DNA from: Hyphococcus sp.
GTDB lineage: Bacteria; Pseudomonadota; Alphaproteobacteria; Caulobacterales; Parvularculaceae
Length of the DNA: 64,000 nt
Direction of reading: 5' to 3'
Assembly: GCA_021776245.1 (NCBI GenBank)
Contig: JAJFGF010000014.1
Span: 1 to 64,000, forward strand
Shown: positions 49,280 through 55,138 of the stretch, in pieces
Position numbering within the stretch: the stretch's first letter is position 1
How the letters are laid out: every line of letters begins with the position of its first letter
Position numbers and translations under genes: made by a program
Notes under the pieces: model-generated
Seen by the model: the letters and a program-made list of their open reading frames with translations, nothing else
Told to the model about the DNA's origin: nothing
The model's database searches: none

Positions 49280-51283
49280 TTATTCGCCTTTTTCGTCGTC
49301 TTTTTTTGGCTTTTGGCCAAAAATACTGTCGAGGAGACCAAGCGCAGTTTCTTCGGGGGTCGGTTCTTCTTGCGGTTCGGCATTGTCGCCCGCAGGCGCT
49401 TCTTCTTCCGCCACATTGCCGCCCGATACGCCTTTCAACACATCGCGTATTGTCTTCTGCGCGCCGCCGAGCACCAGCGCTTCCGCATCGATGCCGATGG
49501 TTGGCTTTGAAAACGTGCCGCCTATGCGCAATGGAATAGAGATGGAGCGCGCGCCTGATCCGTCGATTGTGTCCGCGGCGCGGGGGCTGAGTCGGAGATC
49601 TATGGTCTGTAAGGGGAGATTTACATTACCCTTGCCGGTCATGGTGAGATAGGGACCGGTCAACGTAATCGTTGGCGCATTAACAAGGCCGTCGGTAATT
49701 TTGAAATCTGACAGAAACTCAGAAAAATCGGTTTGTTGTGATGGTCCGCGCGCCTCACTTACGGCGCGCTGCAACGCGGCGGGATTGAATCCTTGCTGAA
49801 GCGATGCGACGGCGCGCGCGATCTTTGCAATATTGACGCCTTTCAACGCCCCATTGGCGATATCAAAGCCGCCGGCACCGTCCATCGATGACATGATCGC
49901 CGCCTGGCTGGCGCCGGTTGCGGTGAAGTTGAACTTAAAGCCGCCAAGCCCCAGGAGATTGTCGTGTTTTAAGAGATCAAGCGATAAGGGTTGCGCCTGC
50001 ACCGCGCCCATATCGAAGTTGCCCGAAAAAGACGGCTTTGCGCCGCGCGCGTTAACGACCAGCTGCCCCGATCCCTGACCGCCATACATTGCAAGTTCTG
50101 GAATGTCGGCAGTGAGCCGGCCATTGACCACAGTAATCTTGAGGCGGCTTTGGCCCATTGCGAGGTCATTGAGAAATATCGCATCCGTAGAAATGTCGAA
50201 ATCCGCGTCTACATTACGCAAGCTTGAAAAATTGATCGACGCTTCGGACCAGGCGGGAAAGCCTTGAGCATTTTCCGATGGCGGCGGCAGATACCGGCGC
50301 AGGTCCAGTTGTTCAGTAGACAGGACGCCGCCGGCTTTTGGGCGCGCGCCGCTCCAGTCGAACCGTAAGGCGCCGTGCGCGTCGATATCGTCAAAGGTGA
50401 TATCGCTGTTCGAAAGGCGCAGTGAATTCGCGCCGCCATCGACCGTACCCGCAAGTTTTAGCCGGTCAAATCCAGGCGCATCGGCGACATCAAGACCAAG
50501 CAGTGCGCCGAAGGCCGGCAAGTCCGGCGCGTTGAGGCGCACCGGTCCTGCATAGCCCAGTGTCTCGCCGGTATCGATAGTCAGGTCGGCGCCGAGGACC
50601 GCGTCATCAACCTTTAGATCGACCTTCAGATTGCCCGGTTCCCTGCGCATTAAATTGGACAGGCTGGTGAGAACAATATCGACCTCCGATGGGGCGCCCT
50701 GAAATAACATTGTGCCGCTCGCTTCCAGGGGTTCGGCAAGGCTATTGAGCGTGACAGTCAAATTCATCGCTTCGGCAGCGTAAGTTTTTCCTGCGGCTTC
50801 ATCGCTGAAGCGCGCTTTTCCATCAATGATGCGCAAATCGCCGAAGCGAATGTCCCGTGTTGCGCTTTCGTCAGTCGCCTCGCCGGGTTCATCGGTTGCT
50901 GCGAGGTTCCAATTGACGCTGCCGTCGCGTCCGCGCGCCAGAATAATATCAGGCTCCGTCAGAATGAAACGATCGACCTCTACAGCGCCTGACAAAAGGC
51001 TGAACAGTTTGACGCCAATATCGGCCTCGCCAACCCGCGCCAGATAAGCGCCGTCAAAACCATCCGCATTCGCAATTTCGAGGTCTTCGACGTGAAACGC
51101 CGTATGCGGTACAATTCGAAACGATAAATTATCGCCAATTGTCACCTCGCGCCCCATGGCGTTTGAAGCTGCAAGCTCAATGCGGCCCTTATAGGCGGCG
51201 ACGGGAATAACCCCTGGAGCAAAGACAAGAACGGCGAATGCAACGGCGATGAGGGCGACGAGGAAGAAAAGGATACGGCTCAT
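49280..51283 (-). CDS. AsmA family protein
   Basis: N-terminal TM, GREVTIGDNLSFRIVPHTAFHVEDLEIANADGF..., C-terminal ...GKGNVNLPLQTIDLRLSPRA; typical AsmA. Confidence 0.88.
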   Translation of the reverse strand: MSRILFFLVALIAVAFAVLVFAPGVIPVAAYKGRIELAASNAMGREVTIGDNLSFRIVPHTAFHVEDLEIANADGFDGAYLARVGEADIGVKLFSLLSGAVEVDRFILTEPDIILARGRDGSVNWNLAATDEPGEATDESATRDIRFGDLRIIDGKARFSDEAAGKTYAAEAMNLTVTLNSLAEPLEASGTMLFQGAPSEVDIVLTSLSNLMRREPGNLKVDLKVDDAVLGADLTIDTGETLGYAGPVRLNAPDLPAFGALLGLDVADAPGFDRLKLAGTVDGGANSLRLSNSDITFDDIDAHGALRFDWSGARPKAGGVLSTEQLDLRRYLPPPSENAQGFPAWSEASINFSSLRNVDADFDISTDAIFLNDLAMGQSRLKITVVNGRLTADIPELAMYGGQGSGQLVVNARGAKPSFSGNFDMGAVQAQPLSLDLLKHDNLLGLGGFKFNFTATGASQAAIMSSMDGAGGFDIANGALKGVNIAKIARAVASLQQGFNPAALQRAVSEARGPSQQTDFSEFLSDFKITDGLVNAPTITLTGPYLTMTGKGNVNLPLQTIDLRLSPRAADTIDGSGARSISIPLRIGGTFSKPTIGIDAEALVLGGAQKTIRDVLKGVSGGNVAEEEAPAGDNAEPQEEPTPEETALGLLDSIFGQKPKKDDEKGE

Positions 51284-51422: not shown

Positions 51423-51446
51423 CAAGGGGATAATCTCGGCCAGGCC
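51423..51446 (+). repeat. 24-bp direct repeat, left copy
   Basis: CAAGGGGATAATCTCGGCCAGGCC, identical to 53883-53906. Confidence 0.95.
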
Positions 51447-51574
51447 CGAGATTGTGCCATCAGAGCAAGTAGTTTAACGCATTGATATTAAACAACAAAT
51501 AACCATCGCCGGATGTGTATCAACCGGCATTGTTGCCAGAAAGACTCATAAGGAAATCTTTATATGAGTGCGCT

Positions 51575-51924
51575 GATAGGAACGCTTGCTCCTATCGATA
51601 TGCCCGGGCAATGATGGTGGGGATAAAAAGGCGGGCAACACCGCCAAGTCACTCGCTAACCCGACTAGAAGTTAAACGAGTATTGCTTCGGCCAACGTCG
51701 CGTGTGGGCACAAACGTGCTCCACGCGACCGAGCCGAAAGCGGATGTAAGCGCGAACAAATACAGGTCGCAACATAACATCCCTCCTTTCTGCATGCGGA
51801 AAAGAGCCCGCGCTCCGGTACGCCCCATGCGCCCGTGGCCGCGTACAGGCTGGGGCATGGCTGGAGTTGCAAAAAGGGCGGTGTCGCCCGGATCGACTCA
51901 AAATCTGGTCCGGCCTGAGAGTCA
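51575..51924. ncRNA. candidate structured RNA region (multiple stem-loops), strand undetermined
   Basis: Hairpins: GATAGGA/TCCTATC (51575-51596); GGCGG/CCGCC (51630-51645); GCTTCGGC..GTCGCGTG..GCAC-aaac-GTGC..CACGCGAC..GCCGAAAGC (51685-51741); GGGCG-GTGT-CGCCC (51877-51890); GACTC/GAGTC (51896-51924). Confidence 0.35.
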
Positions 51925-52083
51925 AGCGGAATTAGGTAATTCGGCTAAAACGGGGGAAAATAAAAGCAAGCTCAATCATTTTGAAGTCAATAGAGGCAAC
52001 CAACTTGACCGTTTCAACCACTAAACTGTTATTCTCCCGAATCGGGGCCTATGGTCCATGTATTCAACAAAGGAGAAGCATTG

Positions 52084-52389
52084 ATGGTCAACGACCTTCA
52101 GGAGCCAGCGGAGGTAAAGGTCTCAGACGAAGAGGCGAAAGCCATTGCCGACTTCCCAGCGACGTTTTGCAACAAGGTATACATTTCGAGCGACGGCATA
52201 ATGTTTCGAATGACTTTCGCGGATACGGGCGGAGACAATGTCGGTTCGCCACGAGTGCGCGCGGCTGTGGCGCTGTCCGCATTCGATGCGCAGAGGTTCT
52301 ACAATTTGCTTGGGTTAAAACTCGAGCGAGTCAGGATAGAAAAAGTAGAAGAGGGCCCTCCGCCGCAGAGCGGGGACGAAAATACTTAG
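52084..52389 (+). CDS. hypothetical passenger protein, possibly DUF3467-like
   Basis: MVNDLQEPAEVKVSDEEAKAIADFPATFCNKVYISSDGIMFRMTFAD...VRAAVALSAFDAQRFYNLLGLKLERV; AGGAGAAGC upstream of ATG. Confidence 0.6.
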   Translation: MVNDLQEPAEVKVSDEEAKAIADFPATFCNKVYISSDGIMFRMTFADTGGDNVGSPRVRAAVALSAFDAQRFYNLLGLKLERVRIEKVEEGPPPQSGDENT

Positions 52390-52459
52390 TACATTTGACA
52401 CAGTCAAAGCGGCCATCTCTGCAACAACAAATGAACAGCAGGATGGCAGCGCGCTTGGC

Positions 52460-52912
52460 GTGCTTACTACATTGTCGAGTGCTCAATATGATTCCAGAAC
52501 CTCTGGGACTGCCGTTCCACAACAGATTTTGTCTGTGCCGCCGGCCGAATATTATGCAGTCGTCTCAAGGGAAAAGCTTGTGAGGCTCGGTGAGACTAAA
52601 CGAGATCATTTGGGCGACATATTTTACACTTGCCTAGGGATTGTGGCTGGCGCCTCAGAAACAACAATTGATGCCGTGTCAACAGTGCTTGATGGGAACC
52701 CGCCAGGCGGGTGGCAGTTATTGTTTGCCATTATGTTTCTTGCATCATTTGTTGCAGGGTTAATATGTGCGGGCCTGTTCTTTACCCGTGGAAATCGGCA
52801 AGACAAATTGCTCAAAGAAATAATGAATCAGCCTACATTTGTTTATAACGATCTTGGAAACCTAGTGCCTTTCGATGAATCACAACAGGCGCATTCACGG
52901 TCGGAATCATGA
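52460..52912 (+). CDS. hypothetical passenger membrane protein
   Basis: GTG-start ORF with hydrophobic LLFAIMFLASFVAGLICAGLFF segment; frame remains open upstream of 52460, so the start is uncertain. Confidence 0.5.
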   Translation: MLTTLSSAQYDSRTSGTAVPQQILSVPPAEYYAVVSREKLVRLGETKRDHLGDIFYTCLGIVAGASETTIDAVSTVLDGNPPGGWQLLFAIMFLASFVAGLICAGLFFTRGNRQDKLLKEIMNQPTFVYNDLGNLVPFDESQQAHSRSES

Positions 52913-52918
52913 GTACAA

Positions 52919-53857
52919 TCAAGCAACGCTTTGACCAGCTTTTGCAACGGATGGCGCACGGCGCTCCGGCTTCGCAAACGCTTGCAAAAGGATCGGCAAC
53001 ATCAAGTGCTGAGACTTCCGAAGGTTCCAGCGGTACTCAAACTCGTGCAGGTAAGTCTGTAGATATTTCGGGGACACATGAATGTAAGTCCCCCGATAAG
53101 CGCCCTTAAAGATATTCCAGAAACCCTCAACAGTATTTGTATGAATGTTGCCGCGTACATATTCCCCGCGCGAGTGATTAACAACGCCGTGATTGTAACC
53201 GTATTCAATTAGGTTGCGGAATGCGCCGCCCTCATCGGTGGCGACGTTTGATCCGCGCTTGATGACTTTGACCATCTCAGGGACAACGGTGTTTTCCCGG
53301 CGGTCTTTAACGACGCGGGTTACGATTTCGCCGTCACGTTCGACTATGCCAAGGACGATGGTTTTGTCGTCTTCGCCTTGCTTGTCTTTACCGCCGACGA
53401 AAGCCTTGTCAGCCTCGACAATCTTGCGACCGGCACCGCCAAGCGGGCCTTCGCCATCAACTTCGCCCATATATTCGCGAATGAGGCGGGCCATGCGCCA
53501 CGCGGTCTTATAGGTCACACCCAATTGGCGCTCTAATTCTTTGGCGGCAACGCCGTTACGCGAAGCGCAGAACAGGAACATGGCGAAAAACCATGAATGC
53601 AATGACGTGCGGGACTTCTCAAAAGGGGTTCCGGCCTTTGGGTAGACCTGAAAGCCGCAATACTCGCAAGTGTAGGAGCCGCGCCCACGGGTCCGGTAAT
53701 AATGAGCGGACTTCCCGCAGGACTGGCATTCATGGCGGTCTCCGTACCGGGTCCGCATCAGGTGCTCAAGGCAGGCGTCATCGTCCGGGAATTGCTCAAG
53801 AAATTGCTTGTAGGTCGGTATTTTGGACACGAATCGGCTCCCTTGCTGATTGTCCAA
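52919..53857 (-). CDS. IS1595 family transposase (ISXO2-like)
   Basis: Zinc ribbon CQSCGKSAHYYRTRGRGSYTCEYCGFQVYPKAGTPFEKSRTSLHSWFFAMFLF, then DDE-like ...VEADKAFVGGKDKQ...VNTVEGFWNIFKGAYRGTYIHVSPKYLQTYLHEFEYRWN-type C-terminus. Confidence 0.95.
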   Translation of the reverse strand: MDNQQGSRFVSKIPTYKQFLEQFPDDDACLEHLMRTRYGDRHECQSCGKSAHYYRTRGRGSYTCEYCGFQVYPKAGTPFEKSRTSLHSWFFAMFLFCASRNGVAAKELERQLGVTYKTAWRMARLIREYMGEVDGEGPLGGAGRKIVEADKAFVGGKDKQGEDDKTIVLGIVERDGEIVTRVVKDRRENTVVPEMVKVIKRGSNVATDEGGAFRNLIEYGYNHGVVNHSRGEYVRGNIHTNTVEGFWNIFKGAYRGTYIHVSPKYLQTYLHEFEYRWNLRKSQHLMLPILLQAFAKPERRAPSVAKAGQSVA

Positions 53858-53882
53858 ATATAGGGATTCAGCTTACTTGTTT

Positions 53883-53906
53883 CAAGGGGATAATCTCGGC
53901 CAGGCC
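53883..53906 (+). repeat. 24-bp direct repeat, right copy
   Basis: CAAGGGGATAATCTCGGCCAGGCC. Confidence 0.95.
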
Positions 53907-53978
53907 TTCCTGGGACATTACGAGAACAAATATGGAAAAAATAATAAAATCAACACTATATATAGTCTTGTCATATGA

Positions 53979-53993
53979 GAACAAATAGCGTAC
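53979..53993. promoter_or_regulatory. candidate LexA (SOS) box upstream of recA
   Basis: GAAC-AAATAGC-GTAC, one mismatch from the alphaproteobacterial GAAC-N7-GAAC/GTTC pattern, 51 bp before the recA start. Confidence 0.5.
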
Positions 53994-54043
53994 ATCGGGG
54001 CTTCATTGACAGGGTGGCCCCCTGTAAGGCAACGGAGGCGGTG

Positions 54044-55138
54044 ATGGCCAAGAGTGATCTGAGATTAGTGGAGATGGGCGGCGTGGATAAGTCAAAGGCG
54101 CTGGAAGCGGCGATTTCACAGATTGATAAGGCGTTCGGCAAAGGTTCGCTCATGCGGCTCGGTGATCGCGACGTTGTTGAAATGGAATCAATTTCAACGG
54201 GCTCTTTGGGGCTTGATATCGCTCTCGGCATCGGCGGCTTGCCAAAAGGCCGGGTCGTTGAGATCTACGGCCCGGAAAGTTCCGGCAAAACGACGCTGGC
54301 GCTGCATGTTGCTGCGGAGACCCAGAAATTTGGCGGCACCGCAGCCTTTATTGACGCAGAGCACGCGCTTGATCCGATCTATGCACAAAAACTCGGGGTC
54401 AATCTTGATGATCTTCTGATTTCGCAGCCGGACACTGGCGAACAGGCGCTTGAAATTGCCGACACGCTGGTGCGTTCCGGCGCCGTTGACATTCTAATCG
54501 TTGACTCAGTGGCTGCGCTGACGCCGCGCGCCGAGCTTGAAGGGGAAATGGGCGATTCGTTGCCCGGCCTGCAGGCGCGGTTAATGAGCCAGGCGCTCCG
54601 TAAGCTTACGGGCTCGATTTCAAAATCCAATACGCTGGTTATATTCATCAACCAGATCCGGATGAAGATCGGCGTTATGTTTGGTTCGCCCGAAACAACG
54701 ACCGGCGGCAATGCGCTGAAATTTTATTCTTCGGTGCGTCTTGATATTCGCCGTATCGGTGCGATCAAAAATCGCGATGAAGTTGTCGGCAATCAGACCC
54801 GCGTTAAAGTCGTTAAAAACAAGGTGGCGCCGCCCTTTAAGCAGGTTGAGTTCGATATCATGTATGGCGAAGGCGTTTCCAAGACCGGCGAGCTTGTTGA
54901 TCTGGGAGTCAAAGCCGAAGTGGTGGAAAAGTCGGGCTCGTGGTATTCTTATAATTCTGAACGTATCGGTCAGGGCCGGGAAAACGCCAAGCAGTTCCTG
55001 AAAGATCATCCCGACATGGCGGACGAAATCGAACGGGCGATCCGCCAGAATGCCGGGCTTGTTGCAGAAGAGATGCTGACCGGCGAGAGCGACAGCGACG
55101 CCGAGACCGACGGCGTTGAAGCGGCCGAAGCGTCTTAA
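54044..55138 (+). CDS. recA: recombinase RecA
   Basis: [41 protein letters not shown]...[17 protein letters not shown]...; start at 54044. Confidence 0.98.

Follow-up and report, generated by a model that had tools for sequence, protein, structure and literature searches.

In the window, the 64,000-nucleotide stretch of Hyphococcus sp. DNA analysed here, a block carrying a transposase gene lies between an asmA-family gene and recA. What is this block, does it move, and why does it sit beside recA?

A passenger-carrying IS1595 element beside recA

We found that positions 51447-53898 make up a complete IS1595-family element, with a single transposase gene and, as cargo, three small ORFs (Table 1); its own genome has one copy. 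A preliminary description of this DNA had reported an 8-bp direct repeat at both ends, related inverted repeats, an ISXO2-like transposase at one end and about 1.4 kb of additional sequence with two ORFs. Both copies of the repeat and all the other parts are present, the additional sequence amounting to about 1.4-1.5 kb, together with a third, short ORF that had not been listed. The terminal inverted repeats are 26 bp long and imperfect, with 18/26 positions matched. Two curated libraries assigned the transposase to IS1595 (Pfam DDE_Tnp_IS1595 PF12762, 1e-37; NCBIfam IS1595 NF033547, 1.1e-54, above cut-off). It also has an N-terminal zinc ribbon (Pfam PF12760, 6.9e-9, above cut-off), and its residues D150, D208 and E244 are invariant in the alignment of relatives; its true start may be the GTG at 53830 rather than the TTG. 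The DDE domain, the zinc ribbon, the 8-bp duplication and the terminal inverted repeats of about 25 bp place the element in the IS1595 family, among whose subgroups are ISNwi1 and ISNha5.

Table 1. Features of the element and its surroundings in the window
Feature	Positions	Strand	Basis or remark
asmA-family gene, flank opposite recA	49280-51283	-	Pfam AsmA 2.3e-33
16-bp scar CAAGGGGATAATCTCG	51423-51438		identical to the right end of the element, located outside its left end
Left 8-bp target duplication GCCAGGCC	51439-51446		sequence
Cargo-side terminal inverted repeat	51447-51472	+	18/26 match to opposite end
G+C-rich long-range inverted repeat between left end and orfA	51632-51890		folding z -3.3 (+), -4.0 (-)
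Cargo orfA, soluble product of about 101 aa (112 aa with a start at 52051)	52084-52389	+	AAGGAG ribosome-binding site upstream
Cargo orfB, about 150 aa; inspection shows hydrophobic membrane segments	52460-52912	+	start codon uncertain; the frame continues upstream
Conserved short ORF, 66 aa (MSTIKQRFDQLLQRMAHG...)	52909-53109	+	antisense to transposase 3' end
IS1595-family transposase, 312 aa from TTG	52919-53857	-	Pfam, NCBIfam, alignment
Transposase-side terminal inverted repeat	53873-53898	-	contains -35-like part of the transposase promoter match
Right 8-bp target duplication GCCAGGCC	53899-53906		sequence
LexA/SOS box GGACATTACGAGAAC (GGACN7GAAC)	53913-53927		6 bp outside duplication; presumed targeting landmark, sequence match
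Second SOS box GAACAAATAGCGTAC	53979-53993		closer to recA, 72 bp from duplication
recA	54044-55138	+	NCBIfam recA 2.6e-174; start judged by homologues

A search with the transposase in named genomes yielded 80 loci, the nearest relatives coming from Marinicaulis and other Parvularculaceae, which assigns the organism of the window to that family. Scanning these and further loci for inverted repeats with an exact 8-bp duplication on either side delimited 77 elements. They share a common plan of end repeat, transposase, cargo, end repeat and 8-bp duplication, the duplication having the same length in the 76 relatives of the window element, and the proposal of an IS1595-family element with passenger genes holds. 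The cargo is on the 3' side of the transposase in every one, and 92/116 cargo ORFs of at least 90 aa are on the strand opposite the transposase. Loci with the transposase alone had been named as evidence that would speak against this proposal; no such bare element was seen among the 77 bounded by target duplications.

The preliminary description had further suggested that the block moves as a unit. One relative, in genome G452, has two 100% identical 2434-bp copies of transposase plus cargo at two loci with different duplications (TAGAGTTA and TCGAGAAA), and therefore the transposase and cargo of that relative are co-mobile. In the closest congener with the locus (G030), asmA and recA are separated by 234 bp, exactly the length of the window gap after subtraction of the element and one duplication, so that the predicted empty site was also found. 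Because the window block has no second copy, its own movement is suggested by the target duplication, the inverted repeats and this empty site. With passenger genes inside the repeats in the window, and co-movement with the transposase in the relative, the element belongs to the passenger-carrying 'tIS' group. Plasmids and phages hold almost no close relatives: identity exceeded 42% in two plasmid records, and the phage matches were all distant. Such elements therefore appear to be mainly chromosomal.

Landing sites at recA, lexA and other SOS-like boxes

The location between asmA and recA had been given correctly in the preliminary description, but its significance had been missed, since the clade to which the element belongs uses this place. 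In a maximum-likelihood tree of 74 transposases, a 25-member clade (support 96/97) includes all 14 copies found immediately upstream of recA, among them the closest relatives of the window element, and no recA insertion was seen outside this clade in the same sample. The same clade also contains one copy at lexA (L063; NCBIfam lexA, 8.9e-52) and four at other SOS-like boxes. The recA insertions are independent and span many genera: their hosts are Parvularculaceae, Phyllobacteriaceae, Parvibaculaceae (Parvibaculum), Rhodobiaceae and others, they occur in both orientations with differing 8-bp duplications, and 76-206 bp separate the element edge from the first aligned RecA codon. A single ancient insertion at recA, vertically inherited and decaying, would explain why several species of the genus retain only remnants at the same place. 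However, the duplications differ, the element of G021 is oriented opposite to that of the window, empty sites exist in G030, G037 and G038-type gaps, and distant families have the same spacing, all of which makes this explanation extremely improbable.

The SOS box of Caulobacter is GTTCN7GTTC (PMC9578287). Read outward from the element, the box is GAACN7GAAC, the alphaproteobacterial LexA operator, and we scored it in 152 flanks at each offset from the duplication, accepting 7 or 8 of the 8 fixed bases. An outward box was present at offset 6 in 15 flanks and at offset 7 in 5 (20/152). The background was 12 outward-box matches over offsets 100-385, or about 0.08 expected at the two offsets, a descriptive figure because the spacing rule was first noticed on the discovery set. 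The window box fits the rule (offset 6), and the empty site of G030 keeps an intact SOS box at the equivalent position. Six members of the genus, including G038 and G036, share the order of element end, 8 bp, 6-7 bp and box. Either half-site is sometimes imperfect while the other stays intact. All boxes were called from sequence alone, and LexA occupancy is therefore predicted. A second, recA-proximal box is found 72-74 bp from the duplication in other recA copies as well. In the window this box is located within an extension of the longest recA ORF, which begins at 53975, 69 bp before the start favoured by homologues; the extension (53975-54043) is probably not translated.

Since recA promoters are homologous to each other, the 14 recA cases are not fully independent with respect to spacing. 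Independent cases at offset 6-7 are found at lexA (L063), at genes for an SRPBCC-like protein (L069), a lipoprotein (L071) and a helicase (L203), and in the dprA-plsY gap (L072). A box at 6-7 bp is absent from six of the 25 clade members, four of these making up a Sphingomonadaceae subclade. Outside the clade, L102 comes near to a match (7/8) at offset 7. A prediction set in advance for four new order-level loci was supported in 3/4 for the landmark and in 1/4 for the exact geometry. L203 fits (box 7/8, offset 6), L205 (comM-like gene) and L206 (coaBC) have the box in reverse orientation at offset 4, and in L204 the duplication has decayed and the box is absent.

Taken together, these data make it very probable that the window element is an IS1595 passenger transposon of a clade that inserts 6-7 bp upstream of a LexA operator, mostly that of recA. 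An ordinary IS1595 passenger element with no target rule could also gather in a tolerated recA-asmA gap by survivorship, given that surviving inserts near recA must spare the gene and would therefore lie upstream of its promoter, and given that the asmA-recA gap of congeners holds other variable genes. Tolerance predicts scatter, however, whereas the independent insertions keep 6-7 bp, also at lexA and at unrelated genes, and other IS1595 clades in equally tolerant genomes are without recA insertions. We therefore regard survivorship as improbable.

Several further sites were observed. L203 and L204, from different genera, both lie before the same SUV3-like helicase gene (VLGPTNTGKTHLA...), which is perhaps a further preferred target. 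L100, L205 and L206, beside radA, a comM/YifB gene and coaBC, have an SOS-like box reversed at offset 4-5, a possible second targeting geometry. A separate IS1595 subclade from Sphingobium/Sphingorhabdus (L090, L093 and L114) is inserted at lexA, each copy having a duplication that starts AAGC and a perfect SOS box 26 bp away. A significant palindrome at the target was found in 9/53 non-SOS empty target sites, and other IS1595 clades seem to choose palindromes. Sites of this type are L180 (arms of 13 bp), L086, L087, L092, L082 and L107, and the targets of L086 and L087 carry the same GTCCGCTTTTGACCCAAAGCGGAC.

Candidate guides and re-use of the site

We infer that the operator guides insertion. 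The strand-transfer complex would be brought to the operator most simply by touching an operator-bound LexA dimer or, less likely, the transposition complex itself would read the GAAC half-sites. The 8-bp cut would fall just outside the LexA footprint, and insertion would thereby spare recA and its SOS control. The region upstream of recA would thus act as a safe, universal landing site, as glmS does for Tn7. We favour LexA as the guide, because one half-site may degenerate if the other is good, as expected for a dimer, and because the cut adjoins the predicted position of that dimer. The main rival is that the target is read directly from DNA, without LexA, by the transposase or the product of the short ORF. 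Some IS families choose DNA motifs, and the 9/53 palindromic sites suggest such selection in other clades here; we consider direct reading a serious possibility, although one with clearly less than an even chance. Among the boxes, either half can vary, as can the N7 spacer, and orientation differs as well (outward at 6-7, inverted at 4-5); both features would suit a bound dimer as landmark, but neither is decisive.

A constant landing distance bears on another feature of the locus. The preliminary description had recognised the 8-bp duplication but missed that the exact direct repeat extends to 24 bp (CAAGGGGATAATCTCGGCCAGGCC, 51423-51446 and 53883-53906). We found an extra end of this kind (a 'third IR', offset 0) adjoining the duplication in 6/77 elements (the window element, L061, L062, L073, L114 and L171), scoring 12-16 of 16 against a background maximum of 11 and invariably located on the flank away from the SOS box. 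In addition, a solo scar is present in the congener G038, its single end separated from the box by 8+6 bp, and a decayed scar with equivalent spacing is present in G036. The landing site is thus re-used. In the window, an earlier element would have occupied this site and left the scar behind, and the repeat would be 24 bp long because it includes the 16-bp end of that older element. With a constant cut distance from the box, a second insertion would fall on the 8 bp used before and displace the first element outward, so producing the layout end-8bp-element-8bp-box, and the first element would later have decayed until only its end was left. We also considered that scar and element might stem from one transposition, the scar being a second end, and rejected this in favour of an earlier occupant, because the extra end is always box-distal and solo scars exist. 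IS30 and IS911 insert beside IR-like sequences, and their junctions resemble the end-8bp-end arrangement of the 24-bp repeat. They differ from the window clade, in which the SOS box would set the position and the older end would be that of the previous occupant.

Tn7 inserts at attTn7, at a fixed distance beside the universally conserved gene glmS, leaves the gene unharmed, carries variable cargo and re-uses its site. The window clade is similar in its fixed spacing by a conserved gene, its harmless insertion, its variable cargo and its repeated use of one site. It differs in having both orientations, an 8-bp rather than a 5-bp duplication, and a regulatory operator rather than a coding end as landmark, and the window element has a single transposase and no TnsABCDE genes. 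Because the multi-protein TnsABC(D/E) machinery is absent, the element works like Tn7 but is not a member of the Tn7-like group.

Passenger-carrying IS1595 elements are already known, and the SOS-box landing rule is, provisionally, what is new. PMC5704250 (citing Siguier et al. 2009) describes IS1595 'tIS' elements with passenger genes, for example MTnSag1/tISSag10 and tISCpe8. The window element is like them in its DDE IS1595 transposase, inverted repeats of about 25 bp, duplicated target and passengers within the repeats, and it differs in that MTnSag1/tISSag10 and tISCpe8 are mobilizable, one with lincomycin resistance (PMC5704250). Unlike those elements, the window clade has a cargo that is uncharacterised or defence-like, replaced as cassettes and accompanied by an antisense short ORF, and it lands at LexA operators, as called from sequence. 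We found no description of IS1595 targeting of recA or LexA in the literature searched, a set outside which the core IS1595 family papers lie; a co-mention of IS1595, recA and LexA concerns the gonococcal drug response. Insertion sequences with a single transposase usually show weak target choice. If the landing rule is true, its base-level precision relative to a regulatory operator would amount to a new mode of targeting, and one of a simplicity that would allow reconstitution. Transposition would also be tied to the SOS system, insertions occurring at LexA-occupied sites, possibly in cells free of damage, and a search rule for such elements and their cargo would follow, namely to look upstream of recA and lexA.

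Cargo exchange and a conserved short ORF

The cargo of the window element matches no known system. Neither orfA nor orfB has a match in Pfam, NCBIfam or PADLOC, so that no such match identifies them as toxin-antitoxin or anti-phage defence genes, and essentially no homologues were found by pattern search and in 289 genomes of the class, making the two nearly orphan. Beside an 82%-identical transposase, G039 encodes a membrane protein together with a soluble one of about 100 aa, a pair that we likened to orfA/orfB by eye. The structured stretch preceding orfA has no Rfam, tRNA or tmRNA match and no counterpart seen in related elements, and may possibly be a structured leader or RNA. By a simple hydropathy rule, a membrane segment is predicted in a cargo ORF of 50 of the 77 elements. 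The majority of the relatives' cargo proteins match no family; those that are recognisable include IrrE/M78 peptidases (5), Panacea antitoxin domains (2), a DNA methylase, KilA-N and a match to a type IIG restriction enzyme. In the asmA-recA gap of G035 (L005/L130) there is a Panacea antitoxin gene with a 121-aa partner, and in that of G021 (L056/L070) a membrane protein with weak likeness to the Pycsar effector PycTM.

Elements with near-identical transposases can differ in their cargo. L061 and L062, both from Nitratireductor, are 96% identical over positions 1-959, and L106 and L138 are 92% identical over positions 1-1004, with unrelated cargo in each pair. In such comparisons homology ends just past the transposase and often resumes only in the last 24-29 bp. 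Because homology breaks off at the cargo, we conclude that the cargo is replaced as a block, or cassette. The cargo, partly defence-like or toxin-antitoxin-like and mostly made up of uncharacterised small membrane proteins, probably benefits the host or the element. A broader reading, to which we give slightly less than an even chance, is that of a LexA-tethered lineage at SOS promoters, swapping defence-like cargo cassettes between the end repeat and the antisense short ORF. Cargo swaps on a near-constant transposase, layered scars and a companion short ORF preserve a history of successive insertions at a single site and offer a source of uncharacterised, partly defence-like gene pairs.

The short ORF is conserved throughout these elements. 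It is typically 50-80 aa long and on the cargo strand, begins beyond the transposase stop and ends antisense within the transposase gene; the window copy overlaps orfB by ATGA. A profile trained on these same elements matches 74/77 of them, 66 antisense to the transposase end, with 1 match above the same threshold in 11,359 flanking ORFs as a control, and conservation is partly imposed where the ORF overlaps the transposase. Several copies are free within the cargo, 368-1008 nt from the transposase, and for this reason we rejected the idea that conservation is a by-product of the antisense transposase. The short ORF has no entry in Pfam or NCBIfam, and its product is modelled as one helix (residues 2-17) with a low-confidence tail (mean pLDDT 66.7). 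It may help in transposition, act as a partner of the cargo or serve as an antisense regulator. Its presence in nearly all elements and its travel with the cargo would also fit a target selector akin in role to TnsD/TniQ, so that the cargo would decide the site. This is unlikely, since clades with other targets have the ORF just as often and a single helix with a disordered tail is predicted.

The apparent transposase remnants of congeners were rejected as decayed transposase, and are mainly the short ORF. The ORF itself is broken in some of these species, and the remnants are therefore no sign of strong retention there. In L206, L070, L073 and L130 additional genes separate the short ORF from the transposase, placing it in the middle of the cargo, and L206 has two copies of this ORF; these arrangements look as if cargo had been added in layers beside the transposase.
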